Notes under the pieces: generated by a model
What the model was told of the DNA's origin: nothing
Database searches by the model: none
The model's input: the letters and a program-made list of their open reading frames with translations, nothing else
Program-made: the position numbers and the translations under genes
In this document: piece by piece, positions 394 through 64,000 of the stretch
Numbering within the stretch: the first letter of the stretch is position 1
Layout: each line of letters begins with the position of its first letter
Source: Siderastrea siderea
Taxonomy: Eukaryota; Cnidaria; Anthozoa; Scleractinia; Rhizangiidae
DNA length: 64,000 nucleotides
Direction of reading: 5' to 3'
NCBI GenBank assembly: GCA_964030785.1
Contig: OZ034978.1
Span: forward strand, 16,199,453 to 16,263,452

Positions 394-3300
394 CGGATCG
401 CATTTTCATTGGCTGAAGTCTGAGCATGAGCAGTTAGACCGGAAGTGAAAGTAGCTGTAATTCGTCTCCAGATTCCCAGATGTGGCCTCCGTTCCTAGAG
501 CCCGTGTTACCTTTTCCAGCGGAGTCTTGAGACCAAAATGGCGGACAAAACACCACTGAAAGAGTGAAAGCTTTGCCTGGAGGTGTAGAACTACAGTACG
601 TTTGAAGATGTTGTAATTCCGGCCCAATAAGACATGCGATAGATTTGTTTGGGGAAACATCTAAGAACGAGAACCTTTTAAATGTTCTGGAAAAGTTGAC
701 CGGATTAGTTGTTGTGTATGGTGACGGACTTCCGAGAAATGAAAGTTGCAGCAGCTGTTGTAGTCGTGCAAAACACTTTTCTGAATCTGGGAACGAGGTT
801 GTTTAAGGACTTCTTTGTGGCTTCAAACGAAAAACAAGAAAGTCCCTTGAGGCTGTAGAGAGGGAAAAAAGCCAGTGAGAGTCCGAAGACAGAATAACAA
901 TGACAATCGAAGAGAGGTAAACATCATGCTATCGAACTAATATTATTAACACCTCCCCAGCCATCACAGATTTCTCCTTTGAGGCTGGAAGTCCTCAGTG
1001 ATATAAATAATGCTTTCACAATTTAAAAAATTAGCTTGTTCTGTTTGCATAATTTTCAAATTCATTTTTTTATACATTCCAAACTGTCCCTTTTCTTATA
1101 CTTCAAACATATAAAATACACTTTCAACTTTAAAGTAACATTAATATAAAATTTATAACACTGTTTATTGCTGATTTTACTTTCGAAGTAAAACAGAACA
1201 TCATTTTTTGCCAACAACTGAACGTTAATTTTCATTATCTTTTTCCACAGGACAGGTTGTATTCCTGGTCCAAAGACAATCTGAAGGACAAAGAGGTTAT
1301 GATGTACTTGGTGTTGGAAAGGTGTCAGATTCTATCACATCCCATTCACCAGATCTTATTCCTGTTTTTGTTGCTTTAATGTTGAACCTAATAAAGCAGC
1401 TGAATTATTCTCTGTTGGTCAAGTTAGTCTTGTGGCCAAGAACACTAGTAGCGGTCTATGGGAAGAGAATCACTGAAGTACCACCACCTGTAGAGCCCCC
1501 ATCCCCTGTCTCTGCTATTCCTACTAGTTCAAAAGAAAACCGGCAAATGAACTATGTACTTCAGGTCATGTAGCTGAGACTGCTTCTGATGCAGTTGAAT
1601 GACACAGAGACAGAAGGTGATGGGGAAAAAAGTCTAAGGAACTGGAAACTTCTCAAGTTTTATTTTAGGGCACAGCCTAGGGGCATGAAATATGCCTTTG
1701 AGGCTATGCATTTTATAACATTTGTCATAGGTCCTTTACAGTGAACACATGGCACATCATATTCTTCATGGTCAGTTTGTGAACCCCAAAGGTGGGGAGG
1801 GCAATGATTTGTGTGGTGCCAATGACCTTTAAATGGAACATGGTCAAGAATGATAAGGGTGTTCTGAAAGCAATATGTGGGAACAAAACTCTCAAAGCAG
1901 TTCAAGGATCCACTTCTTCTAGTTAACTGCTAAACGAAACATCAAAGCAGTATGACAGGGAAAGCAACATTTCCCCAAGTCAGCAAACCATACTTATGCA
2001 TGTACATCTGATGATATCAAAGAAATGATCTAACTTATCAGCAGTCAAAAGCCCTTCGAACATCAGCCAGGAAAGAGTCTTCAAAGCTTCCCTTCCATTT
2101 CTAAGAGCCCTTTAGATCAGCTGGACAAATTTGCTTTGCACTCCTAGTTAACTAAAAACAAGAAATGACTAGAGAGCTAATCCACACAGCTGCGATGACT
2201 CTGCATGTGATGATGCTCATGAAAGTGATGGGGAGGAAGACGAAGAGATCATTTCTCTAGATGAAGGATTTGTTTAATCTCAGAAAACAAAAACATTAAT
2301 ATACATTCCCTAGGGCATCAGCTTTCTTCACTATGTTACATCAATATTGGTATTACTTTAAATTTGTCAACTGAATAAAATTTATATTTTCAGTCCCACA
2401 AAATGAGGAATTTCACTTGCATAGTGGATCACATATTGCTGATACATGAGTACTTTCCACTCTAACTTACAGTGTAATAAGCACTTCACACCAATGAGGC
2501 AATTTTTGTGGTGGAGGGGGTGGGGGTGCAATTAAGCCCTACTAAACATTCAAAAGGTCCCAGTAACAACATGGAATCCCAAATGACTCAAACTACAGTT
2601 ATTTGCTTGTTAGTTACCCCTGCTCCATAAAATTCTCACTGAAATATTACTGTTATTTTTGTTTCCCCTGGTGGTTCACATTATGGAGATTCTAGTGCAC
2701 ATGTCTTCTTGGGAAGGTGTTTCTGAATAATACTGAAAAAATCTGCAGCCATATCTTTACTGTACACTTCGAAGATGGATTCCTTCTTTTGTACAGAGAT
2801 AAGGTCTGGCATGTGTTCAAGGACCAAAGAAATCATTTCAATCGGAAACCCACTGGACAGGGCCACATTGCGCACAGTGCTTCTCCCAGTATCTTTTTGG
2901 AGTTGAAATCTATATTTCTCCATGTCTTGTTTGATTTTAAGTTTGGCCTCAGAAGTAAATAATTGGGAGTTACCCTCATTCTGTTCAGTGAGGGTCATCT
3001 CAGACTCATCTTGAACACTGAGTGCCTCAACCTGTTCAGCTGCATGCACAAGCATACAGTTTTCACACTGACAGTGTAGCCTGTGAAAGTCACAGCATGT
3101 GTGATCTTGAGGTTGATTGTCTGGAACCTTGTGGTCAAAATGATTTAAAATAATTTGTCTTTTACATTCCTTGGACTGGACATAGGACCGCATGGCTTCT
3201 GGTATGTTTTTTTACAGGCTTTTGGAATGTCATAAGAATAATAATAAGTGTCAGCCCTAGCTGCAAGGCTATTTCTGCCAGCCCTCCCAACTTCGTGTAT

Positions 3301-4109
3301 CTTACCCCAGTGTGAACAATTCTGTGAATGTCATTGCAGTCAATCCCAATTGCAAACGCCACAGTCACGAACAACACACGGTGGCTTGATTTCCCATTTA
3401 CTAGTTCATCTACTATTCTCCTTCTCTCATGCTTGGAATATTGGGTATGATACATGGTAAAAAGTCTGTTCTTTGCTGAAGGCTCTGCTGAAGGGTGGTA
3501 TTGGTCTTTGCCCATTTCATTGGAAAATACAGGAAACAGCCTGAAATTGTTTCTAGATTTCCATAAATAAGAGTGAGGGGCGTTTCCAGCCTCTTTGATT
3601 TGAGTTCTGCAACAATTGGCTGCAAAATTCTATCCAATTTGTCATCGCCCACTATCAGGACGCACATGGGAGGCGTAAGTCCTGTTTGGACTACACTCAA
3701 CTGTTACTGGGGTGGACAGTCCTAAGGCAGTTACAATGCCACTTTTTGTAGCTGCTGTTGCTGTGCCTGTAAGTGCCAGTAGTGACACTCAGATGGGAAC
3801 AAATTTGTTAACAGGCTTATTCTTCCATATGCTGGACAAAATGTGGCCCTTAACAAAAAACAGAAAAGAAGGTATAAATATAAATTTGTGTCCCACGTGA
3901 TGTTTAATTTGTAATTATGTAATGACTGAAGTACACCATCCCATAAAATGGTTCATTTCCCATCCATCTTTCTCTTTTCATGGGGTGCTCTTTATTTAAT
4001 CTCTGAAAACATGAGTTGCATGGATGAAAACCTCTCTCTGGGTATTTACACTTTCTGATTGCTTTCATTTCACAAGCCAGTTATTAACCGGTTTGAATGA
4101 TAAAAAATG

Positions 4110-8503: not shown

Positions 8504-8593
8504 AAACTACTGAAACTTTTAAACTTTTTTTTTACCTTAGCTTTCGCTCAATGAAGACGTAACAAAACAAGGAATATTTAGATTTTGTTAAGG

Positions 8594-9481
8594 ATGGCCA
8601 ATCAGAATGTTGGAATGCTTTCCCCACAAGAGGAAACAGCTTGGACTGGGGTATTTGTCAGTGAATATGTATTGATATTTGTCATCAACGCCTTCACCAT
8701 CTTCGCCTTTGCAAGAAAACGCCACTTACGCAAGTGCACTACGTACCTGATAATAAACCTGACCATGGCTGATCTGCTGGTGGGAGCAGTGACGGGACCT
8801 TTAAGCATATACTTAGGAAAGATCAAGCCTGGAAATGGTTTCGGCTGGCGACAGTTTATTATTTTAATTTTTACTAACATTTTTCCATTAGCTTCTCAAG
8901 TTAATCTTACTTTAATTTCTTTAGAGCGGTTACACGCAACACTTTATCCCTTTAGGCATTGTTTGGTTGAGAAATGGTTTTACTTTAGAATCATAATTAG
9001 CAGTTGGTTCATAGCCTTGCTTCTGTCATCTGTCGTTACTATTTTTCACCTTTGTGTTGAAGAGGCAATTTCGTACGCATGGCCATCACACATTTTCATT
9101 ACTCTCTTGGTAATCACAATATCATATTTAATTGTTTATTTAAATGTCAAAAGTAACCCTCTTCCCAACTGTTCTAGTTCAGTTGTGTCAGAAAGGAAAC
9201 TGTCTGTAACTTTATTTATAGTTACTGTTGTATCAGTTCTCACCATTCTGCCCGCGGTTATTTGGCTTTCTATTCCTCGCGACATTCGGGGCCAGTTGTT
9301 CCATGGGAGAGGACATCGTATTATGATGAAAGTCCAAGCGCTATATTATGCCAGTTCTTTAGTCAACCCACTGATATATGCCATAAGAATGCAGGAATTT
9401 AGGAAAGCAGTAAAAGAACTCATTTGTAAAAAGACTGTAGGGTCAGCTCCTGTCCAACCAATTGAACTCCGTGCAATGTAA
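8594..9481 (+). CDS. Class A (rhodopsin-like) G-protein-coupled receptor, single exon
   Basis: This is a 295-residue seven-helix receptor. ATG 8594 is chosen because it lies in a good context (AAGGATGG) and no ATG precedes it in frame after the last stop. Helix 2 has NLTMADLLVG with Asp60, helix 3 ends in SLERLHA (residues 109-115) in place of the usual DRY, helix 6 has a proline near 220 but no CWxP, and helix 7 has NPLIY at 258-262. A short basic tail follows. The loop before helix 3 has no cysteine, so the usual helix 3 to loop 2 disulphide looks absent. The size and intronless structure fit the large cnidarian sets of orphan amine-, adenosine- or melanocortin-like receptors. The ligand cannot be told. 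It acts at the plasma membrane and presumably couples to heterotrimeric G proteins. Confidence 0.9.
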   Translation: MANQNVGMLSPQEETAWTGVFVSEYVLIFVINAFTIFAFARKRHLRKCTTYLIINLTMADLLVGAVTGPLSIYLGKIKPGNGFGWRQFIILIFTNIFPLASQVNLTLISLERLHATLYPFRHCLVEKWFYFRIIISSWFIALLLSSVVTIFHLCVEEAISYAWPSHIFITLLVITISYLIVYLNVKSNPLPNCSSSVVSERKLSVTLFIVTVVSVLTILPAVIWLSIPRDIRGQLFHGRGHRIMMKVQALYYASSLVNPLIYAIRMQEFRKAVKELICKKTVGSAPVQPIELRAM

Positions 9482-12329: not shown

Positions 12330-14705
12330 ATGGCCGAAGCCGACGCCGATCCTGTTTTGCCTTTGCCGCCAGCTCCGGCGGCGCCAGTTCCTGATCCATT
12401 ACCCGTTGTTATACCGGCTGTTGAACCGGCACCTGTTGCACCGGCTCCTGTGGTTGTTCAAGAGGTAGATTTTCATTTCTGTGTTTAGTCTTATGTTACG
12501 TTTTGGATTTTCGCGGCGCGGGTTAGGTTTCGCGCTTTAGTCGTTACGCTGGCCTGCTTGTTCGCCTCCTCGCGTTTTCTTGTCTGGCTTTTTCTTCGTG
12601 TTGTTTGCCTATCATCGTTTTTGGCCGTTATTGCATGCGGGTTTTGGTAGTTTTTTCGCTAGCTTAGTGTCCTTGTTCGGTTTTCTATCTTTAACACTGT
12701 TTTACAGCTTTTTGGCACAAGGTGCGATTCCCTTTTGTTTTATTTTCAACCTCGTTAGTCTTGTTGTGTTTTTGGTTCGCTGTTTTACAAGTTTTTTGCC
12801 CTCTTGGGGTGTTTATTTCTTTTGGGGTCAGTTTTTGGCATATTTGTCCTTTTTCATTCTCTTATTTTAGATTGTTTGTTTCGTAGTTTGTTTCGCGCTT
12901 TTCATTGCGGTTTACTGCGTTATTCCTGTTGTTTCGTTGCTCTTTCGCGTTCATGTAGTCTATGCCGCCACCTTTTGCGTGCCTCGAACTATCTTAAGGT
13001 CGGCGCTTACTGCTTTATACGTTCAAGTTTTTGATGTTTATATGGCCCTTTGGGCCGGCAACCTCTAGGGTTGTATGTTGTTTTTTGAGTGTGGCCCGGA
13101 GAGCCAGAAACCTGTAGCGGTGACACAATTTTTGAAGTATGGCCTGGAGAGCCAACAGCCTGGAGAGCTGTAAATTATTATTTAAGTGTGGCCTGGAGAG
13201 CCAACAGCCTGGAGAGCTGTAAATTATTATTTAAGTGTGGCCTGGAGAGCCAACAGCCTGGAGAGCTGTAAATTATTATTTAAGTGTGGCCTGGAGAGCC
13301 AACAGCCTGGAGAGCTGTAAATTATTATTTAAGTGTGGCCTGGAGAGCCAACAGCCTGGAGAGCTGTAAATTATTATTTAAGTGTGGCCTGGAGAGCCAA
13401 CAGCCTGGAGAGCTGTAAATTATTATTTAAGTGCGGCCTGGAGTGCCAAAAGTCTGTAGAGCTGCAAATTATTATTTAAGTGCGGCCCGGAGAGCCAAAA
13501 GTCTGTAGAGCTGTGAATTATTATTTAAGTGCGGCCTGGAGAGCCAACAGCCTGGAGAGCTGTAAGTTGTTATTTAAGTGCGGCCTGGAGAGCCAACAGC
13601 CTGGAGGGCTGTGAATTGTTATTTAAGTGCGGCCTGGAGAGCCAACAGCCTAGAGCTGTAAATTGTTCTTTGACTGCGGCCTGGAGAGCCAAAAGTCTGT
13701 AGAGAGCTTTGACATAATTTTTCGAGTTTGGCCTAGGGCCGGCCGCCTGGAGGGCTGTGGATTGTTTAGTCCGGGTCTTCAGTTGATTAGGTAAATTACT
13801 TAATTATTGTTAAGCTTTCAGACTCCCTCGGGTTGTAGATGCGTTTTTTTATTTTATTTTATTTTTTTATTTTTTTATTTATTTAGTTTGTTTATTTAGT
13901 TCATAGTCTCTTCTGCTTGTATAGCTTTCCGCAGTCTGAGGGTGTGGCACGTTTTTGGTGCGCTCATTTCGCTTTTGTCAGCTGTATAGCTAGTGGCGGA
14001 GTTTTAAAGTATAAGTGCGTTGAGGCAGTGGACCTAAGAACTGCAGCATGATTTCATTATCTGTTGTGCTGGTTTGGTCGATAATTTTGATTGCTTCCCG
14101 CAGCTTTTGCGTGGTAAACCGTGCAATTTGTGGTTACTTGTGCCGTAGTGTTTATGTCATGGTGACATTCTTTATTCTCCCCTTACGTTTTTCTTTAACA
14201 GCCAGTTGACCGTATCAGGATGTTGGAAGACAAAATTAAACTTCTCGAGCAGGAGAGGTCTGCCGAAAGTTGCACTAATGCGCTGCTAGCCCTTAGAAGG
14301 CATCTGAATAGGCCGTCGTCCCTCTTTGACCGCTTTGAAGCTATCGAGCTTTTGGAGACCCTCGTACGCCTGGCAAGGACGCAGGCGCACGAGAAGGCGG
14401 ACGAATACGCCGCGGCGCTTGAGGAAGTAAAGGCTAGGCAGCCGTCCCTCGGCGCCGACCATCTTCAGCGTTTGATGCTTGGTCTTGTTGGGGATTCCCC
14501 AAGAGCTAAAATGGCCAAGGAGGCTGCGTCGATTCTGAAGGGGATGTCCAAGGCGCCCTCTCCAAGTTTCCAGGCAAGACGTCCCTTGCGCCAGTCTGCC
14601 CCGTATTCGGTCCAGTGTCACGCTTGTGCAGGATGGGGACACATTGCGCGTAACTGCAAATCCAGACGTGGAGGCGGTCCTGGACGTGGGCGTGGACGCC
14701 AATGA
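12330..14705 (+). CDS. gag: Gag-like protein of the YR element, two exons
   Basis: Exon 1 is 12330-12464 and exon 2 is 14202-14705, giving 212 residues. The first exon encodes MAEADADPVLPLPPAP and continues as a Pro/Ala/Val-rich stretch to VVQE. The donor is GAG|GTAGAT and the acceptor TTCTTTAACAG, with phase 0 kept. Exon 2 starts PVDRIRMLEDKIKLLEQE, a likely coiled coil, and ends with one CCHC zinc knuckle (CHACAGWGHIARNC, spacing CX2CX4HX4C) and an Arg/Gly-rich tail (RRGGGPGRGRGRQ). Such Gag proteins bind the element RNA and form the particle. The 1.74-kb intron holds a 49-bp minisatellite. If splicing is not used, translation could start at ATG 14220 and yield only the last 161 residues. 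Confidence 0.75.
13089..13720 (+). repeat. 49-bp minisatellite inside the gag intron
   Basis: About 13 units start near 13089, 13137, 13186, 13235, 13284, 13333, 13382, 13431 and onward. The core is GTGTGGCCTGGAGAGCCAAC, then AGCCTGGAGAGCTG and TAAATTATTATTTAA. The units from about 13137 to 13430 are nearly identical. Those on both sides are more diverged, the usual pattern of expansion from the centre. Confidence 0.92.
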
Positions 14706-14990
14706 TTGTGTCTACAATTCTATAATTCAAGGATTTTGTATGTTTTGTATTAAATTTTTTTCTTTGTTTGTTCAAACTTGTCTTCTTTGCCTTGGGGTGG
14801 GTATTTGCCCTTGCCCAGTTGACCTCGGGGGGACCTTCTCAGTGTCTCAATTTCGGACCTAGTTCGGAGCCTGGGGTCAACAAAGGGTTGGGTTCCCTTT
14901 AAGCTTTTTCGGGTGTTTGTTTCGGCTCATTTTCGTTTCCCTTTCGTTACGTTTTAGGCAAATCATTCTTCGTTTATTTCAAGACTCAGT

Positions 14991-17101
14991 ATGGCTCAGC
15001 TACACGTCTCTGTGGGAGATGTGCCTCTTCGCTGCATAACACAGGGAGCCCCTCCCTTTGTTGGCCCCTTGCCTCCTCTGGAGCTGGTGGCGTCGCGTCC
15101 GGGTTTGGGTAATCTAGCTCATTTGCGCTTCTTCGACCCTGCCCACTTCAGGGCTGGCAATATTCATAACAAGCCGTCCATTTGGCAGGGCCTTCTTGAT
15201 AAATCGCCCTGTTCTGAAGTTGACCTTTTGGAGGTTATCAAAGATGGAGTTCGCGTCGACCGATTTTTCAGGCCTTTTAGGGGGAATATCAAGGGACAGG
15301 CGTACGACTCCGAACATCCTCCTCCAATAATCCTAAAGAACTCGCCTACCACAGCCAAGTTTTCCCAGTTTGTCTCCGATTCCATAATACAATGGGTCAC
15401 CGCGGGGGTTTTAGCAGTTTGGGGCCCAGTGGATAGTGTGGCGCCCCCACGTTTGGTTTTACCACTAACTGTCGAGCCTTCAAAGCCGCGGTTGTGTCAT
15501 GATGAGCGATATCTCAATTTATGGATTCGTGACCTCCCATTCAAGCTTGACCACCTTTGCGATTTGCCGCGGTATGTTCTCCCCGGTCACTTCCAGAGTT
15601 TCTGTGATGATAAGAGTGGTTATCAACATGTCTTGCTTCATCCCTCGTCTCAAACTTATTTCGGCTTCCAGTGGCATGGTTTCTATTTTGTGTTTCGTAC
15701 ACTGCCCTTTGGATGGAAGGCCAGCGCGTTTATTCACCATAAGCTCGGACTTGCAGTTTCGGCCTCCGTACGGTCTCACGGAGTCCCAGTTTCGCAGTAC
15801 ATTGATGATCGGCACGTTGGACAACTTTTTACTTCTCCATTGCGGGTCGCGAGCCATCTCTCGAGCGAGCTAAGGCGGCAGTTTATATTATGTGTTATCT
15901 GCTCATTGAAGCTGGATATTTCATTGGTCTTGACAAATCGCAGCTGGTTCCTTCGACATGGGTTCGTTTTCTGGGTTTTGTTTGCGATTCTGTAAGTCAG
16001 GCCTTCCTTTTCCCTGAGGACAAGAAAGTCAAGTTCGCGGCGTTGAGGGAAGACATTCTTTCGTCTCCATACGTGGGATTGAAAACACTTCAACGATTTT
16101 CGGGGAAGGTCATTTCTTTTAGCCTTGCCATTCCTGGATGTAAGTTGTACGTGCGCGACGTCTTTAGGGGGATCTCCCGCCTTTCAGGATCTACTTGGCC
16201 TTCCCTCAAGGTAGAGGCGACTCTTCGCACCGAGATAGAGTTTTGGCGTTTTCTTGATAATTGGAAGGACTGCCTTCCATGGAGAACTGAACGCCACGCA
16301 GTGGTTACGCTTTATTGTGATGCCTCCAAGAGGGCCTGGGGTGGTACTCTGCTACAGGACGGTCGCAGTCTGGAGTCGAGAGATTACTGGATAGACAGCT
16401 CGCAAGATATCAATGTTTTAGAGACTCGGGCTTTGCTGCATTCGCTCCTTTCGTTCAGACATCATCTCAGCTCGCGTAGGGTGGACGTTCACACTGATAG
16501 CCTCGTTTTGAAGTCTGCTCTGGCAAATGACGGTTGTAAAAACCAAGACATTAACAATGTCCTTAAAGACATTTTTGATTGCTGCAGAGAATTCAATTTC
16601 AGCCTTGATGTGCATTATGTTCCTTCAAGTGAGAACCCGGCTGACATCCCTTCCAGGAAGGTTTCAGATATCGATTGCATGTTGTCAGAAAGGGCTTGGG
16701 AGCCCGTCGAGCGCCTTTCTGGGCCTCACACCTTCGACCTTATGTCTTTGGATAGCAATTGTCAACGTGATGGGGAAGGCCGGTGTTTGCACCATTTTAC
16801 ACCTTGTGCGACTCCAAGCTCTTGCGGAATTAACGTTTTCGCACAGTCTCTGCCTTTGGACCACAACTTGTATGTGTTTCCACCGTTTGTGCTAATTGCG
16901 CCCCTTCTAAAGTGCATGTTCGAGCAAGATTTTCATGGTGCCTTTACGATCATCGTCCCGGATTTAAAGCCTCGACGTTTCTGGTGGGCGTTGTTGCAGT
17001 CGCTTACTGTTGATCGACTCCTTTTGGGGAAGAAAGGCGAAGATGGCATTTTGTTGTTTCCCTCTCAAAACAGCCGTCGCTGGTACTCAAAAGAGCTTTA
17101 G
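14991..17101 (+). pseudogene. Reverse transcriptase-RNase H of the YR element, one frameshift
   Basis: The first reading frame (ATG 14991) carries the RT domain: KPRLCHDERYLN near residue 165, DDKSGYQ at 206-212, LPFGW at 238-242 and the active-site QYIDD at 269-273. It then runs into a wrong frame near 15855-15870. The second frame continues the RT thumb (KSQLVPSTWVRFLGF) and a complete RNase H with YCDAS, LETRA, HTDS and NPADIPSR carrying the acidic residues. A C-terminal block with YVFPPFVLIAPLL and IVPDLKPRRFWW, typical after RNase H in DIRS-group elements, follows. The frame change could be a mutation or a sequencing error. A programmed shift is unlikely inside the RT core. It copies the element RNA and removes the RNA strand. 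The ATG lies 26 bases after a GTTTTAG acceptor-like site. Confidence 0.9.
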
Positions 17102-17165
17102 TGGGATCTGTGGGGTGGGCCTTCCGTTGTGTTTGCTAAGCCAGCCTGATCTCTTCTTTTAGGTT

Positions 17166-18419
17166 ATGCGTCCATGGAAGTCAGCCCGACGCTGTTCCGC
17201 CTGCCTTTACCCTAACGATTCCGATGCGAATTATTGTCAGGCGTGCGGGACATCGACCGGACTTCACCTTGCTGTTACGTCAACTGTTCGCGTGGATGAA
17301 ACGGCGATCAAGGAACGGTTTAAAGAATTTCAATCTGTTATACGCTCTAACCCTTACCAAAGGCAGAAATCCGCTTTGGAGCAACAGCTCTCCCAGTTTT
17401 TGGGTGCATTGACTCCCCCTAGGACAGTGACTTCTTGTACTGCTAGTGACATTGTCAACTTTCTAATTTTTAAGGATAAGTCAGGGAGAACTGTAGTACA
17501 TTCGTCTTTATGTTCAAGGGCTTCCTGCACCTGTCCTAAGCGCTTGGCAGCCGGGTCGGTAGATTCCCTTATAGGTCGTTTGAGGGCCGTGTTTAATAAT
17601 CTAGGACGTCTTAATAATTCTAACCCGGTTGCCCACCCCTTAGTTAAGGACTACTTAAAATTTGTCAGGCAGGAGCAGGCGGGTTTGGCTATAACACCTG
17701 TTCAAGCAGTACCTTTGTTTTTCGATAAATTTCGTAGACTCATAGCTTTCTTACGAGGTTTGCTTTTAAGTCACGCGCCTCTTTCGCGCTCAGGTAAATA
17801 CATACTCGTTCGGGACGCTACGTTTTTTGTGGTGGATTTTTTCACCGGGGATAGGGCCTCTGACCTCGGTCGCCTTCAGTCTTGCAACATTTTTAGGTTA
17901 AGGGATCGGGAAGGCTTTTTGCTCAAGTTTACTCTCACTAAAAATATCCGCAAGGGCTCACCTCGCTCTTTTGCTTTGATTAAGTTTACTCATCCCGAGG
18001 TTTGCCCGGTTGCCTGGGTCCAGCATTATATTACGGTGTGCCAGTGCCTGAAAATTTCATTGGATCAAGGGTACTTTTTTAGAGCCACGGAACGCGATGG
18101 TTCGGTGGGGGACAAACCCTTTACAGGTTCCGCGGTTAACAATCGGTTGAGGAAACACCTTTTAGAGTCCAAACTCCATGCTGGAGAGACTCCGCACAGT
18201 TTTCGGGTAGGATTATCCAACACTCTAAGGCTTTTAGGCTGTTCCCAGGAAGAGGTTGCTCAATACCTAGGCTGGAAAAGTGGGGAAGTCGCGAGTAGAT
18301 ATATGCAGCGCTCACATGCTGACGCTTCCCTTACAATATTAGAAAGCGTGTTCCCCAGAGTGGCTTCCGGCTTGGTAACCCCGGTCTCACATCCCAATAA
18401 TTTGGACGCTGCTGTTTAG
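17166..18419 (+). CDS. Tyrosine recombinase of the YR retrotransposon
   Basis: An intact frame of 417 residues. The N-terminus has a zinc-ribbon-like CX2C...CX2C (residues 10-27, CSACLYPN and CQAC). A helical core-binding region with several extra Cys (about 115-124) follows, then the catalytic domain with Arg230 in FFTGDRASDLGRL, HSFR at 344-347 and the nucleophile Tyr379 in ASRYMQR. These match the R...HxxR...Y set of tyrosine recombinases. The enzyme joins the circular element DNA to the target without a target duplication. It begins 64 bases after the RT stop, behind a CTTCTTTTAG acceptor-like site, so it may be made from a spliced RNA. Confidence 0.93.
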   Translation: MRPWKSARRCSACLYPNDSDANYCQACGTSTGLHLAVTSTVRVDETAIKERFKEFQSVIRSNPYQRQKSALEQQLSQFLGALTPPRTVTSCTASDIVNFLIFKDKSGRTVVHSSLCSRASCTCPKRLAAGSVDSLIGRLRAVFNNLGRLNNSNPVAHPLVKDYLKFVRQEQAGLAITPVQAVPLFFDKFRRLIAFLRGLLLSHAPLSRSGKYILVRDATFFVVDFFTGDRASDLGRLQSCNIFRLRDREGFLLKFTLTKNIRKGSPRSFALIKFTHPEVCPVAWVQHYITVCQCLKISLDQGYFFRATERDGSVGDKPFTGSAVNNRLRKHLLESKLHAGETPHSFRVGLSNTLRLLGCSQEEVAQYLGWKSGEVASRYMQRSHADASLTILESVFPRVASGLVTPVSHPNNLDAAV

Positions 18420-39000: not shown

Positions 39001-42000
39001 TAATAATTACAATATTAGATCTGAACTTATGAATAGATGAAATTCATATATTTGAACTGCAGAATGAAGAAATAAATGTAAAGAAGATCCTCGCAGTTAT
39101 TAACGCAACTTATGCAGTTGCGAAAAGAAAGCCTGAAAAAATCAGGCTTGCCGGGATTCGAACCCTGACCTCTGCGATACCGGTGCAGCGCTCTAACCAA
39201 TTGAGCTATCAAGGCAACTGGGAGCTGGTCATTAAATTGGTTCGTAATATACCCGGGAAAGATGAAGATGAAATTATGAATATATGAAATTCATATATTT
39301 GAACTGCAGAATGAAGAAATAAATGTAAAGAAGATCCTCGCAGTTATTAACGCAACTTATGCAGTTGCGAAAAGAAAGCCTGAAAAAATCAGGCTTGCCA
39401 GGATTCGAACCCTGACCTCTGCGATACCGGTGCAGCGCTCTAACCAATAGAGCTATCAAGGCAACTGGGAGCTGGTCATTAAATTGGTTCGCAATATACC
39501 CGGGAAAGATGAAGATGAAATTATGAATATATGAAATTCATATATTTGAACTGCAGAATGAAGAAATAAATGTAAAGAAGATCCTCGCAGTTATTAACGC
39601 AACTTATGCAGTTGCGAAAAGAAAGCCTGAAAAAATCAGGCTTGCCGGGATTCGAACCCTGACCTCTGCGATACCGGTGCAGCGCTCTAACCAATTGAGC
39701 TATCAAGGCAACTGGGAGCTGGTCATTAAATTGGTTCGTAATATACCCGGGAAAGATGAAGATGAAATTATGAATAGATGAAATTCATATATTTGAACTG
39801 CAGAATGAAGAAATAAATGTAAAGAAGATCCTCGCAGTTATTAACGCAACTTATGCAGTTGCGAAAAGAAAGCCTGAAAAAATCAGGCTTGCCGGGATTC
39901 GAACCCTGACCTCTGCGATACCGGTGCAGCGCTCTAACCAATTGAGCTATCAAGGCAACTGGGAGCTGGTCATTAAATTGGTTCGTAATATACCCGGGAA
40001 AGATGAAGATGAAATTATGAATATATGAAATTCATATATTTGAACTGCAGAATGAAGAAATAAATGTAAAGAAGATCCTCGCAGTTATTAACGCAACTTA
40101 TGCAGTTGCGAAAAGAAAGCCTGAAAAAATCAGGCTTGCCGGGATTCGAACCCTGACCTCTGCGATACCGGTGCAGCGCTCTAACCAATTGAGCTATCAA
40201 GGCAACTGGGAGCTGGTCATTAAATTGGTTCGTAATATACCCGGGAAAGATGAAGATGAAATTATGAATATATGAAATTCATATATTTGAACTGCAGAAT
40301 GAAGAAATAAATGTAAAGAAGATCCTCGCAGTTATTAACGCAACTTATGCAGTTGCGAAAAGAAAGCCTGAAAAAATCAGGCTTGCCGGGATTCGAACCC
40401 TGACCTCTGCGATACCGGTGCAGCGCTCTAACCAATTGAGCTATCAAGGCAACTGGGAGCTGGTCATTAAATTGGTTCGTAATATACCCGGGAAAGATGA
40501 AGATGAAATAATTTCATATATTCATAATTTCATCTTCATGTTTCCCGGGTATATTACGAACCAATTTAATGACCAGCTCCCAGTTGCCTTGATAGCTCAA
40601 TTGGTTAGAGCGCTGCACCGGTATCGCAGAGGTCAGGGTTCGAATCCCGGCAAGCCTGATTTTTTCAGGCTTTCTTTTCGCAACTGCATAAGTTGCGTTA
40701 ATAACTGCGAGGATCTTCTTTACATTTATTTCTTCATTCTGCAGTTCAAATATATGAATTTCATATATTCATAATTTCATCTTCATCTTTCCCGGGTATA
40801 TTACGAACCAATTTAATGACCAGCTCCCAGTTGCCTTGATAGCTCAATTGGTTAGAGCGCTGCACCGGTATCGCAGAGGTCAGGGTTCGAATCCCGGCAA
40901 GCCTGATTTTTTCAGGCTTTCTTTTCGCAACTGCATAAGTTGCGTTAATAACTGCGAGGATCTTCTTTACATTTATTTCTTCATTCTGCAGTTCAAATAT
41001 ATGAATTTCATATATTCATAATTTCATCTTCATCTTTCCCGGGTATATTACGAACCAATTTAATGACCAGCTCCCAGTTGCCTTGATAGCTCAATTGGTT
41101 AGAGCGCTGCACCGGTATCGCAGAGGTCAGGGTTCGAATCCCGGCAAGCCTGATTTTTTCAGGCTTTCTTTTCGCAACTGCATAAGTTGCGTTAATAACT
41201 GCGAGGATCTTCTTTACATTTATTTCTTCATTCTGCAGTTCAAATATATGAATTTCATCTATTCATAATTTCATCTTCATCTTTCCCGGGTATATTACGA
41301 ACCAATTTAATGACCAGCTCCCAGTTGCCTTGATAGCTCAATTGGTTAGAGCGCTGCACCGGTATCGCAGAGGTCAGGGTTCGAATCCCGGCAAGCCTGA
41401 TTTTTTCAGGCTTTCTTTTCGCAACTGGATAAGTTGCGTTAATAACTGCGAGGATCTTCTTTACATTTATTTCTTCATTCTGCAGTTCAAATATATGAAT
41501 TTCATATATTCATAATTTCATCTTCATCTTTCCCGGGTATATTACGAACCAATTTAATGACCAGCTCCCAGTTGCCTTTATAGCTCAATTGGTTAGAGCG
41601 CTGCACCGGTATCGCAGAGGTCAGGGTTCGAATCCCGGCAAGCCTGATTTTTTCAGGCTTTCTTTTCGCAACTGGATAAGTTGCGTTAATAACTTCTTTA
41701 CATTTAATATTAGATCTATTAGCAAGGCAGCTGAAATGACCACTAGAGCTAAATTGGTCGGATGGCCATTAAATATTACAATCTGAGAGATGTCAACATG
41801 ATCATTTATAAAATAAAATTCTCCCACATAAATATATGGTACAGAATATACTGAAAGTCCGTGGAAAAGAATTTTCGTCTTGACCAAACGAACGTTAGTG
41901 CGATATTTCGTTCACGACTACGAACTTTCGCGTCATTTTTTCTCCAAGCACCATGTACGCGAAATTTCGCTGAAACGTAAACAGGCAGATCTCTGAAAAA

Positions 42001-45000
42001 TCGGCGAAATTCGCTGCTGAAAGTTCGAAATTCCCGAAATGTCGAAATGTCACGGAAGATTGGCGACTTTTAGCCTGTTCCAGGCGTTCAGATAGTGGAG
42101 CGCGAGCGAAAAAGAAAGCGAGCGAAAGAGCGGGAAAAAATGAGGGGAGACTGGGGAAGAGGACGATGAACGCCTGGAACAGGCTAGGCGACTTTCGTTT
42201 GCATTTACTTTTTCACAGTATTTTACTTGTATTGCCTTTGTTTATGGTAGTGCGTTTATACGTTTGTAGCGCAAATGCCATATTTGCATGTTCAAATGCA
42301 CTTCTTGAGTCCATAGAGAGAGAATTTTTCCAAAAAGCCGAAAGATCGGCATTATACGTCATGTTAGGTAACCCTAACATGAGTTATAATGCCGATCTTT
42401 CGGCGTTGTGGAAAATTCGGAAAAAATTGGAAAAAATGACCTCACAGGAGGTTTGTACCCTAGTTTGTAAGGAGACTGTGTAGAAGACTATATGTTTCTT
42501 TACATCTGACATGAATCGTATGCCCAAAGCTCAAAAGCCCATGCTTTTTGAAACAAAGCTTAATTGTGGAGGAAACTAGTCGAGACACGTAATGCAAACT
42601 CCGTTCGTGTTTCTTCATTTCGTGAATGAAAACATAGACAAGATATTGTCCCATCCCCTCAATCACGTTTTCCCCCTCGATTCTTTTCGGCACCAAAACA
42701 ACATTGATAAAGGGAAGAAGGGGAACGACTGAATAATTTTAACGGTTAAAGTTTTCGCGCAGTTAGAAGTGTCTCGAATATTGAGACATTGCAGTTCTCT
42801 TTGTGTCATGATAGGCAACAGCCTTGGTGAATGTTTCGCACTCGAGTGTGTCTTCAGGTCTTTTGGCCTGAGATGATAACATTTCTGTAGGCGAAACAGC
42901 CTTGGTGAATGTTTCACACTCGAGTGTCTCTTCAGGTCTTTTGGCCTGAGATGATAACATTGCTGTAGGCGAAACAGACCTCTAAACACTGGTCGTTCTC
43001 TTCTCCTGTGCCCCTTGAGCGGTTTCCTTGAGACGGGCCTTTTCTTTACTTGCTCGTTAAGTGGCCAGACAACTGCAACGAGCCAACTTGATTTTGATCA
43101 GTGATATGCAAATTGTTCAACGTAGAGCTGTCTTTGGGGATCATCATTATTATTGTTATGTTATTTCGTTTTACTTTTCTTCCCACAGGAGTACATAGAG
43201 TCGCCTGGCTATTCTAGTGGATACTATTACAGTGATCAGTGTAAACCAAATGAGTCAGAGTGGCGCATATTCAGAAGGTTTCAGAATCATCGAGTTTACC
43301 CACCAACAGTTAGAGAGGCTGTACGGGATGTTAAAGAAGGAGAAGCAGATCATGAAGACGGTAAAAAATCTTGTTAGCTGTTTGCACCAAAAATGACGTC
43401 CCATGTTTACATGTAGAAAACAAAACAGGGTGAACGAACTATGAAAAAACGAACGAACGAGTAGTGAACAAATAGAAAAGATGTTCTGGTTTGTAAGGGA
43501 CTTAACCCTTGACATTTTTTGGAATCCTTGTGCAACACTTTTCCGCTGGGCTGTGAAGCCGTTGCCAATTTGCAAGTAAATGTCATACACGACTAACACT
43601 ATTCATTTTTTAATATATGTCATTTGAGGTGCATGAGAGCAAATTTTTTAGTAAAGGTGGCAATGCCTAGTCTTGTAACATGCCCCTTAAATGGTTAAGT
43701 ACAAAGTACTGTGTTTTGGTTTGGGTTGAACCTACCCTGTACAACTGTCACGTTTACTGTACCTTCGAGACAAACTGATAGTTTGTGTCCCGCATCAGAG
43801 GGAGATCGTGTTACTAGCTGTAAGTTCAGGCATTCTGTCTCTTTTTTAAGGCTTTGACTTCACAAATGACCAAGCTGTTAGTCAGTGGTACAGGCGGAGA
43901 ACAAGCAAACATTTGCTGATGAGACAGCCAGCCAAACCGACGGATCTAGTAAAAGTTGTGCAGTATGAACAAAAACAAGCAAGTGCAATTTTACTGTTTA
44001 TGATTATTTTCAGTTTGAGTTTGATGTCAACTTTGTCCTCGACTTGCTCAGGTCCCGGGGTTTCAGATACTTGAACTGAAAAACCGACAAATTCTTCTTT
44101 TTCTTTGTAGGGTCTAGCGCTGATGGTTGAGCAGGCATTTGGCCTCGTTGGAAACATTCAGTTTGTAAACGTGCTTGTTTATGTTTCTCGTGGACACGAT
44201 GTACAAAATCAACAAGAAACCGAAGAAGGATATGGTGGTGAAGAGAAAGAACTAGTAAAAAAGCGTGACTTCAACAGCTACCAGAAATCTCCCAAGTGGA
44301 CTGACTCACCCACGGTTTGTAAACGTCAATCACAGGCTACACTCTCGCTATTTATCTTAAGCTTTCAATTGATAATAACTGCGTTATAGCCTGTACCCTT
44401 TTAGATAACGCTGTGACGTCAAGGGACTGTCAAAACAGTAAGGAGTCACGAGCGAAGCGAGTGATTTCGCAACTGGTATGCCTAACGTCAGGATTAAAGT
44501 CTTAAAAAACCTTTTGAAAGCAGTGGAAATCGCGGAAGCACTACAAACCATGCAGAATGCGAAGTAAACCCTCTGATAAAACGTTTATTGACCTCTCTGC
44601 CCTGTTCATAACTGGGATACAGCCGTAGTTTCTTCCGGTGATACATTTTTGCTGAGGGCAAATTCCAACCCTTCATGTCCTCTTTATTTAAACTATCACG
44701 TTTACCGGGTTACTGAAGTCCTCAACTCAAAGAAATGTTCCGATTTCTACTCCAAACGTTGGACATGTCACAAGAGTAAACCTTTTACCAGCAAGCGTAA
44801 TTTTGATTAGAAATGGTGAAATTGACTGTAGGAATATCTAAACACATGATATCGGCTCAAGTCAACAAAGTCCAATTTTAGGACACGCTAGTTGGTGGGT
44901 GGTGTTATAAATAAATAACCTTGTTATAGTTTCAAACTTGTAGCACTTGATCGGGGAGACTGAAATCCAGATCGAATTGGAATTTGGAAATGTTGGTTTT

Positions 45001-55699: not shown

Positions 55700-56042
55700 G
55701 TTCAATTAAATCCTGCCAAAGTCAAATTCGTTTTCACTAGCTACTACAGAAACATCAAATGCTTAAAAACGTCAAGGTAACGGCGATTAACCTAAGGTAA
55801 AAACTCGTGCAAGACAGTTCAATGAAAACATGACTCAAAGGACGCCATTTTGTCTTCCTTCAAACCGAAAGGGACTGGACGCTAGTTCTCATGCCTTTTG
55901 CGGTTTGCGTAAATGAATTGAGAATGGCTGAAGGACCAACTGAGCATCAACTCGAACTCAGAGGGGAAAAATTGTGAGTCAGAAGAAACAAATGAGGCGA
56001 TTTTTGCTTTACCAAACAAACATGTGAAGCAGTCTAAGTATT

Positions 56043-56874
56043 GAAATTATGAAATTCATATATTTGAACTGCGGAATGAAGAAATAAATGTAAAGAATAT
56101 TGAGAGGATCTTCTTTACATTTATTTCTTCATTCCGCAGTTCAAATATATGAATTTCATATATTCATAATTTCATCTTCATCTTTCCCGGGTATATTACA
56201 AACCAATTTAATGACCAGCTCCCAGTTGGCTTGTTAGCTCAATTGGTTAGAGCGCTGCACCGGTATCGCAGAGGTCAGGGTTCGAATCCCGGCAAGCCTG
56301 ATTTTTTCAGGCTTTCTTTTCGCAACTGCATAAGTTGCGTTAATAACTGCGAGGATCTTCTTTACATTTATTTCTTCATTCCGCAGTTCAAATATATGAA
56401 TATTCATATATTCATAATTTCATCTTCATCTTTCCCGGGTATATTACGAACCAATTTAATGACCAGCTCCCAGTTGGCTTGTTAGCTCAATTGGTTAGAG
56501 TGCTGCACCGGTATCGCAGAGGTCAGGGTTCGAATCCCGACAAGCCTGATTTTTTTTTCAGGCTTTCTTTTCGCAACTGCATAAGTTGCGTTAATAACTG
56601 CGAGGATCTTCTTTACATTTATTTCTTCATTCCGCAGTTCAAATATATGAATTTCATATATTCATAATTTCATCTTCATCTTTCCCGGGTATATTACGAA
56701 CCAATTTAATGACCAGCTCCCAGTTGGCTTGTTAGCTCAATTGGTTAGAGTGCTGCACCGGTATCGCAGAGGTCAGGGTTCGAATCCCGACAAGCCTGAT
56801 TTTTTTTTCAGGCTTTCTTTTCGCAACTGCATAAGTTGCGTTAATAACTGCGAGGATCTTCTTTACATTTAGTT
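56043..56874. mobile_element. Second tRNA-like array, 3 units plus an inverted fragment, 12-bp duplication
   Basis: tRNA-like parts lie at 56228-56298, 56476-56546 and 56726-56796 on the plus strand, preceded by an inverted piece of the unit (56043-56099). Here the acceptor stem is better preserved: GGCTTGT pairs fully with ACAAGCC in units 2 and 3. The D stem GCTC/GAGC and the CTGC/GCAG anticodon stem also pair, but the base before the GGT anticodon is C and the T stem has a bulge. Flanks AGTCTAAGTATT (56031-56042) and AGTTTAAGTATT (56871-56882) are a 12-bp duplication with one change. The right end, CTTCTTTACATTT, is the same as in the first array. Confidence 0.88.
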
Positions 56875-57494
56875 TAAGTATTCCTAAAACAAGCTCCCGA
56901 TGTAAACATTTTTGTTCAAGTAGCTATTCAATATAAACAGGATAGACCTGTTACTCTAATGCTGTAATTGCAAACTCAAGGTCAAGGTGAGACAAATTTG
57001 TTAGTCGGCTTGTGGTTTTTATTTATTTAAATCACGTTAATTCAGTTTTTGTTTGTGGTTGAGAAATGACTTAAAGCAACTTATTACTTATTTCCAGTCC
57101 TATTTTTTTTAATTACAAAAACGGCTGAAAACAGAGTTTAATTACAGTGTTGATCCTGAATTTATCTTCTTTACACCACAGAATGTGTTCAAATGATCCT
57201 TTCCTTTTGTTAAGATGGCACCATTATCTTTGTCTTAGATCGAAATGGCCATGATATTCTTTTTATTACATAATATTTTTTTTTATCTGCGAACATATCA
57301 AAAATTGTCTGAGACGTCCCTCTTAATCTGCAACTGATGACACCTGTTTTAATGCTAGTCGTTCCTTCTTGAAAATAACTTTTTACGTCAGCTCGATGGC
57401 TCCAACATGTACCGTGGAGCGAAATTTCATCACTCTGAGTTCAAAATTTTGAGGCTTCATCCAGCAATATTTCCTGTTGTACCGGGATTGTTAA

Positions 57495-63747: not shown

Positions 63748-64000
63748 GAGGCAGTAGCCGAGTGGTTAGGGCGCCGGACTTGAAATCCGGGGGTCCAGGG
63801 CTCAAGTCTCGCTGTGACCGCTATCTGGAGTTGTTTCACGGCCGACCCAAGTTCAACTCCTCGACCACAGTAAATAGCCAACTGGTCTGCCCGTTGGGAT
63901 TTTTAACTTGTTATGATCAGTTTAAAATACTTGTTTCTAGCACCTTGCTTTAATCACTTGCGAAGGTAAATAAAGGACATTTATTTGTTTATTTATTTAT
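63748..64000 (+). mobile_element. tRNA-Ser-derived SINE, runs to the window end
   Basis: The head GGCAGTAGCCGAGTGG with GGACTTGAAATCC (anticodon loop TGA, Ser-like) and a decayed B box GGCTCAAGTCT is clearly tRNA-derived. The acceptor and T arms are mutated, so it is not a working tRNA. The body follows, with AATAGCCAACTGGTCTGCCC and a TTTAT-rich tail. A second tRNA-like word, AGTTCAACTCC, lies in the body. Confidence 0.8.

Follow-up and report, generated by a model that had tools for sequence, protein, structure and literature searches.

Head-to-head arrays of a tRNA-like 247-bp unit in Siderastrea siderea and their probable insertion by a Penelope-like enzyme

tRNA-derived SINEs are dispersed, non-coding elements with a tRNA-like head that contains A and B boxes, and Pol III terminates at T runs such as T6. 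Animal retrozymes are built of tandem units of 150-450 bp, have no LTR, form circular RNA and, where target duplications are present, have duplications longer than 4 bp; Penelope-like elements (PLEs) have been proposed as their helpers (PMC7229834, part of the text). For PLEs, biochemistry has described two adjacent internal start sites with a tail between them and the cutting and extension of both strands, with no difference in start site between the strands in vitro; multi-copy PLE mRNA was also proposed, and further insertion steps were yet to be validated (PMC11167929, part of the text). Head-to-head copies of rotifer Penelope have been explained by self-priming on antisense RNA (PMC3846280, part of the text). 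The element reported here is like each of these systems in some respects; no such element was found described in the literature covered, which consisted mostly of papers open without subscription.

Two arrays in one stretch of DNA

The window is the whole stretch of 64,000 nucleotides of S. siderea DNA that was analysed (contig OZ034978.1, positions 16,199,453 to 16,263,452). It had been predicted from the letters that eleven tRNA-like copies lie in one tandem array at 39011-41717. All eleven were found (nine are called by ARAGORN), in units of about 247 bp that are 99% alike, and the 12-bp flanking duplication is exact, but the single tandem array was refuted: six copies lie on the minus strand, followed by five on the plus strand, in two arms which meet head-to-head. 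The overlap of 3 bp at the switch is interpreted as the point where two cDNAs were joined by their 3' ends. A second array of like plan, absent from the original prediction, was identified at 56043-56870, in which about three sense units come after a short antisense stretch. The sites at or near which the outer ends of the arms lie are designated E1 (unit position 0) and E2 (about 51), some 50 nt apart on the unit; they are the edges of the 'tail', and we infer them to be start sites of reverse transcription. The features are as follows.

39011..39022, no strand: left target duplication AATATTAGATCT, 12 bp
39023..40512, minus strand: antisense arm, about 6.0 units long, with its outer end at E2 (near unit position 51)
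39142..39217, minus strand: tRNA-like domain, outermost of six; the others near 39391, 39636, 39883, 40130 and 40377
40510..40512, no strand: head-to-head switch point, 3-bp overlap
40510..41705, plus strand: sense arm of about 4.8 units, terminating ...CTTTACATTT (E1)
40584..40659, plus strand: tRNA-like domain, first of five; the others near 40831, 41078, 41325 and 41581
40728..40779, plus strand: one E1-E2 'tail' (unit positions 1-52), with the hairpin AATATATGA..TCATATATT inside
41706..41717, no strand: right target duplication AATATTAGATCT
56031..56042, no strand: left target duplication of the second array, AGTCTAAGTATT
56043..56096, minus strand: short antisense arm of the second array, outer end near E2
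56101..56870, plus strand: sense arm of the second array, about 3.1 units, outer end at E1
56871..56882, no strand: right target duplication of the second array, AGTTTAAGTATT, one mismatch against the left copy

The Pol III A and B boxes, predicted to be intact in each unit, were seen by eye, although a few units have substitutions in the tRNA-like part. A T6 run follows directly after the tRNA-like part in each unit, and the outermost unit of the 40510..41705 arm has a deletion of about 10 bases. The predicted absence of a hammerhead core held: no hammerhead or other Rfam ribozyme was detected at E <= 10 in 40500-41300 on both strands, on which ground a hidden hammerhead was rejected, nor did any Rfam ribozyme reach the gathering score across the window. 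The only frame of at least 150 aa touching either array is one of 168 aa across the switch, which is too short for a reverse transcriptase (RT) with GIY-YIG.

Elsewhere in the window, a DIRS-like element on the plus strand (14199-18419) has RVT_1 below Pfam's cut-off, an RNase H-like match just below it and, in its tyrosine recombinase ORF, an ALOG domain; a 49-bp tandem repeat of 12.7 copies lies upstream of its ORFs (13084-13704). RecQ helicase-like fragments (weak Pfam matches) and a rhodopsin-type GPCR ORF were also noted at 2681-3629 (minus strand) and 8582-9481 (plus strand), as was an inverted repeat around AAAGATCGGCATTATA..TATAATGCCGATCTTT (42330-42400, by eye), perhaps a short MITE. 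A different tRNA-like sequence at 63748-63819 on the plus strand, followed by AT-rich TTTA-like repeats, resembles an ordinary tRNA-derived SINE.

Arms, duplications and outer ends in the genome

The unit was used for a DNA search of the 831-Mb genome, in which the best 40 of 1180 candidates were scored, giving at least 37 places. With the second window array, 37 places (the first window array included) made a survey set of 38 loci and 39 arrays, each taken with at least about 0.2 kb of flanking sequence; one locus (L044) holds two insertions 148 bp apart. Two arms were read in 35 of the 39 arrays (33 loci, among them L038, entered by hand with an antisense arm of about 16 nt, plus L044a and L044b), and the order was antisense-then-sense in 35/35. 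The remaining four are one-armed (L020, L021, L027 and L043).

The flanking duplication that had been predicted for the window array was present, mostly at 12-13 bp, in 32 of the 35 two-armed arrays, 29 of them by script together with L038 (12 bp), L044b and L044a (with a one-T indel). The scripted lengths (n=29) were 12 bp in 14 arrays, 13 bp in ten, 10 bp in two, and 14, 15 and 18 bp in one each, with one mismatch in L010, L031, L034 and L040. Three two-armed arrays (L014, L023 and L037) have neither a duplication nor one of the expected ends. Flanking duplications in the family are beyond chance: a duplication score of at least 9 was reached in 30/38 loci, compared to 41/1406 mismatched flank pairs from different loci used as a control. 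One of these 30 loci, L043, appears to be a false positive, its repeat lying away from the ends of the array, and was left out of the count.

The two outer ends of an array differ. Among the 29 scripted arrays, the first lay at unit position 246-255 in 24 and at 209-237 in the other five, which stop 10-38 nt short of E1, and the second at 43-56 in 28; the exception, L034, starts about 16 nt short of E2, and its duplication call extends into the element. One E1-side and one E2-side end were thus found in 31 of the 32 arrays with duplications, the last, L034, being near E2. No E1/E1 or E2/E2 pair occurred in the 29 scripted arrays, with which L038, L044a and L044b agree. The side bearing E1 varies between arrays. 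At the outer ends, one to three bases are often common to element and target, and an added ATTT or the like is present at many E1 ends.

Assembly of long palindromes is difficult, and one small contig (C19) has a mirror structure. Even so, the probability that the arrays are an assembly artefact is close to negligible, given that the 35 two-armed arrays have different flanks and joints, 32 have duplications of their own and many contigs are involved.

A second subfamily was represented by the L060 array, which is 76% identical to the window unit and has a near-perfect cloverleaf and a 13-bp duplication. With L060 as the query, the best 40 of 1705 candidates were scored and 20 loci were taken, some for their high rank and others for additional matches (n=21 with L060). 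Two arms were found in 11/21 loci, antisense-first in 11/11, and the duplication score was reached in 12/21 (null 7/420). Seven clear cases combine two arms and a duplication with one outer end of each type, E1 and E2 (L060, L093, L096, L098, L099, L103 and L107), and L100, whose E1 arm is a few bases long, may be an eighth. Two loci, L092 and L106, break the E1/E2 rule: they lack a duplication, and each of their ends lies at E1 or close to it; L094 has E2/E1 ends and no duplication, L108 is complex, L097 and L104 (and L102 by eye) are one-armed yet have a duplication, and the duplication of L109 sits in a simple repeat. Between the subfamilies 70/73 positions of the tRNA-like part, 45/52 of the tail and 25/36 of the spacer are kept, and in the predicted fold three pairs are changed on both sides and six are broken.

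Target site, joints and template

With the 29 scripted sites put in one orientation, the E1-side nick was preceded by A (18/29), A (22/29) and C (24/29), and at the other nick a T (21/29) was followed by G (14/29). The target consensus is AAC^W-N10-T^G(T), with AAC^W at the E1-side nick and a weaker T^G(T) at the other. From this geometry 12-nt 3' overhangs would be expected, both able to prime, and the E1 nick would presumably come first because its motif is the stronger. An AAC target common to the second subfamily was not borne out once its sites were oriented, the motif being present in 1/7 clear cases (by eye) and T^GT at the other nick in three.

The palindromic layout, the near-constant target duplication and the near-palindromic target would also suit a foldback-type DNA transposon with tandem repeats in its inverted ends. 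This is scarcely plausible: E1 and E2 differ in sequence, unlike terminal inverted repeats, the length of the arms is unconstrained, they meet at random unit positions, and the genome's elements with RT and GIY-YIG obey the same end rule (see below).

Inner arm ends were uniform over the unit (68 ends from 34 two-armed arrays, Rayleigh p about 0.5), on which ground run-off from the fixed end of a linear monomeric RNA was rejected. The joints of these 34 arrays had a 1-9 bp overlap in 15 and a 0-16 bp gap or filler in 19, and the phases of the two inner ends were unrelated in nearly all, being equal only in L046. If a PLE primed itself on antisense transcripts, the mechanism put forward for rotifer Penelope palindromes (PMC3846280, part of the text), the arms should be in phase where they meet in a hairpin joint; besides, the outer ends of these arrays are not the same. 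We regard self-priming as very improbable here, and two-sided priming fits the differing ends and random joints better.

At least one arm exceeded one unit in 33 of the 34 arrays, and both did in 15, with 11 units in the longest arm. Where three or more units of an array cover a site, 28 variants were fixed in all units, 182 were confined to a single unit and 19 were intermediate (8 of the 19 at CpG). Among the 28 fixed variants, 26 were seen in both arms and five in one array only; several (112T, 13T) are subfamily markers rather than array-specific, 112T being found in 12 arrays. Unit divergence was 0.0097 within an arm, 0.0086 between the arms of one array and 0.0206 between arrays, or 0.0117, 0.0108 and 0.0196 as per-array averages without CpG, with some pairs of arrays nearly identical. 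Because the variants are shared and the between-arm divergence is low, both arms seem to derive from one template sequence, although gene conversion between arms could also homogenise the units.

Growth in place, by unequal crossing-over or replication slippage after a short insertion, would leave a flanking duplication and homogeneous units too. It would, however, spread later mutations to some of the units, where only 19 intermediate variants were counted against 182 single-unit ones, and it would need many separate expansions, given the number of arrays with one or both arms above one unit. We therefore hold it to be improbable.

The variants shared by both arms favour a circular, mostly monomeric template, of which a monomeric circle is the simplest form consistent with a single template sequence. 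The unit as a circle has a predicted fold better than its shuffles (z about -7). Intermediate variants in L009 and L014 are at odds with a purely monomeric circle; a sign of a multimeric circle was sought by eye in these two arrays as variants of period 3 or 5, and the patterns were not consistent. The intermediate variants suggest that some templates had non-identical units, as could a linear multimer, in which read-through RNA of an existing array is copied from both nicks by a PLE enzyme and for which the multi-copy PLE mRNA of PMC11167929 (part of the text) is a parallel. Several observations argue against such a template. Variants fixed across both arms (26/28) would need a bottleneck of one unit. 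In a palindromic array a sense transcript extends over one arm at most, so that daughter arms could only shrink, yet arms of 11 units exist. The T6 run in each unit should stop Pol III, and multi-unit Pol III transcripts are unlikely because the run stands directly after the tRNA-like part. A linear multimer is thus a possibility to which we give limited weight, and a circular template is likely. The original prediction, that multimeric RNA from a circular template or from read-through of a tandem source was reverse transcribed and inserted, is in part supported.

Penelope-like elements, retrozymes and SINEs compared

A GIY-YIG search (150 of 1600 candidates scored) gave at least 149 matches. 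Neighbours no more than 12 kb apart among the matches listed were oriented (-,+) in 23 cases, (+,-) in one and on the same strand in five. Outer ends were examined for 19 of the 23 (-,+) pairs; 16 of the 17 informative pairs had one E1 and one E2 end, the other (C10:16139376) being E2/E2, while C7:42881406 (nested) and C12:20218973 (truncated) were uninformative. The two end sites are about 97 nt apart in PLE family A, 83-92 nt in B and at least 41 nt in C, whose E1 merges with TA repeats. Duplications of 11-12 bp are found in four family B pairs, and many copies of A and C end in (TA)n, those of B as a rule not (L047-L062, L067, L068, L071). Two full PLE ORFs (RVT_1 and GIY-YIG) have an E1-E2 tail directly before the ORF and another copy after it, which is the PLE anatomy given in PMC3846280 (part of the text) and agrees with the two internal start sites seen in vitro in PMC11167929 (part of the text), and both elements have a minimal hammerhead-like core by pattern. 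Folding of three PLE tails showed no significant structure (z -0.3, 0.8 and -0.1).

Families A-D have end motifs similar to those of the unit (ACATT, AATTCA) but differ from it in tails and targets, none of those looked at having the unit's own tail or AAC target. A search for a helper by tail similarity among the PLE loci taken returned only an older array in L060 and a chimaera at C19:110586-116501 (L066, L059), in which a unit array is joined at E2 to the ORF end of a family A PLE, mirror-wise, in both arms. The chimaera suggests that a transcript holding a PLE end and the unit was once copied, and it is possible that it is an assembly error, the contig being small and mirror-like.

We consider it probable that the unit is a non-autonomous element mobilised by a PLE RT-endonuclease which copies circular unit RNA from both nicks; of the parts of this proposal, two-sided target-primed copying by a PLE enzyme appears well supported. 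The enzyme would nick the strands at points 12 nt from each other and so create 3' overhangs. Both overhangs would prime reverse transcription on tRNA-sense RNA, the first at one edge of the tail hairpin and the second at the other; the antisense-first order would make both cDNAs antisense and hence the template tRNA-sense. Both copies would run round one small circular RNA to give tandem cDNA of random length, and the joining of the two cDNA 3' ends would produce the head-to-head array. For the completion of PLE insertion, the array scars suggest that both nicks are primed, usually one from each adjacent start site, and further that one repeated template is used and the cDNA ends are joined; dozens of such scars were read and the genome probably holds hundreds. 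The rule of one start site per strand comes from the arrays of this genome and is absent from the account in PMC11167929 (part of the text). Confirmation of the circle would also show that a hammerhead is dispensable for a circular-RNA retroelement of animals, and would make the tRNA-like fold a testable candidate for its replacement.

More speculatively, and in our judgement on the unlikely side, this may be a ribozyme-free circular-RNA retroelement in which the tRNA-like fold replaces the hammerhead as circle-maker and a PLE dimer copies the single circle from both DNA ends. Each unit would be cut once in its tRNA-like domain, for example if tRNA splicing endonuclease or a stress ribonuclease acted on the anticodon loop; the cut would yield a 5'-OH and a 2',3'-cyclic phosphate, and ligation by RtcB would then give back a scarless unit.

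The genome holds at least 61 hammerhead matches. Six hammerhead loci were taken, five palindromic and one (L116) one-directional with an 11 bp duplication; L114 and L117 have no duplication at their ends. Only three retrozymes could be scored for the E1/E2 rule (n=3): L112 has one E1 and one E2 end and a 13-bp duplication, and L113 and L115, in which both arms end at the same site with 11-bp duplications, break the rule. Two-sided priming therefore looks general, and the one-of-each rule does not. The L112 retrozyme and PLE family A share the E1 end motif TCACTAATAWACAT, a hint of a retrozyme-helper pair.

Compared to tRNA-derived SINEs, the 247-bp unit has the tRNA-like head with Pol III boxes, is dispersed and is non-coding. 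It differs in its tandem, palindromic arrays, which end at E1 or E2, and in the T6 directly after the tRNA-like part; single-direction copies with a LINE-type or simple-repeat 3' end, as in SINEs, are not the pattern among these arrays. The predicted likeness to retrozymes stands in the short tandem units of 247 bp, the lack of an LTR and the target duplications over 4 bp (PMC7229834, part of the text), and may extend to circular RNA and a PLE helper. It fails in the self-cleaving hammerhead, which was not detected, in place of which the unit has a conserved tRNA-like domain; the head-to-head arms and the two end sites are absent from that part of the retrozyme account. The element is therefore not a retrozyme by definition, although it seems to work like one. 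With PLEs it shares the head-to-head copy, the optional tail on one end, the E1/E2 signature and probably the cutting and extension of both strands (PMC11167929 and PMC3846280, parts of the texts), and it differs from an autonomous PLE in having no PLE ORF, no hammerhead and arms with as many as 11 repeats of a 247-bp unit. It is accordingly filed as a ribozyme-less, non-autonomous variant of the PLE/retrozyme kind, and not as a retrozyme.
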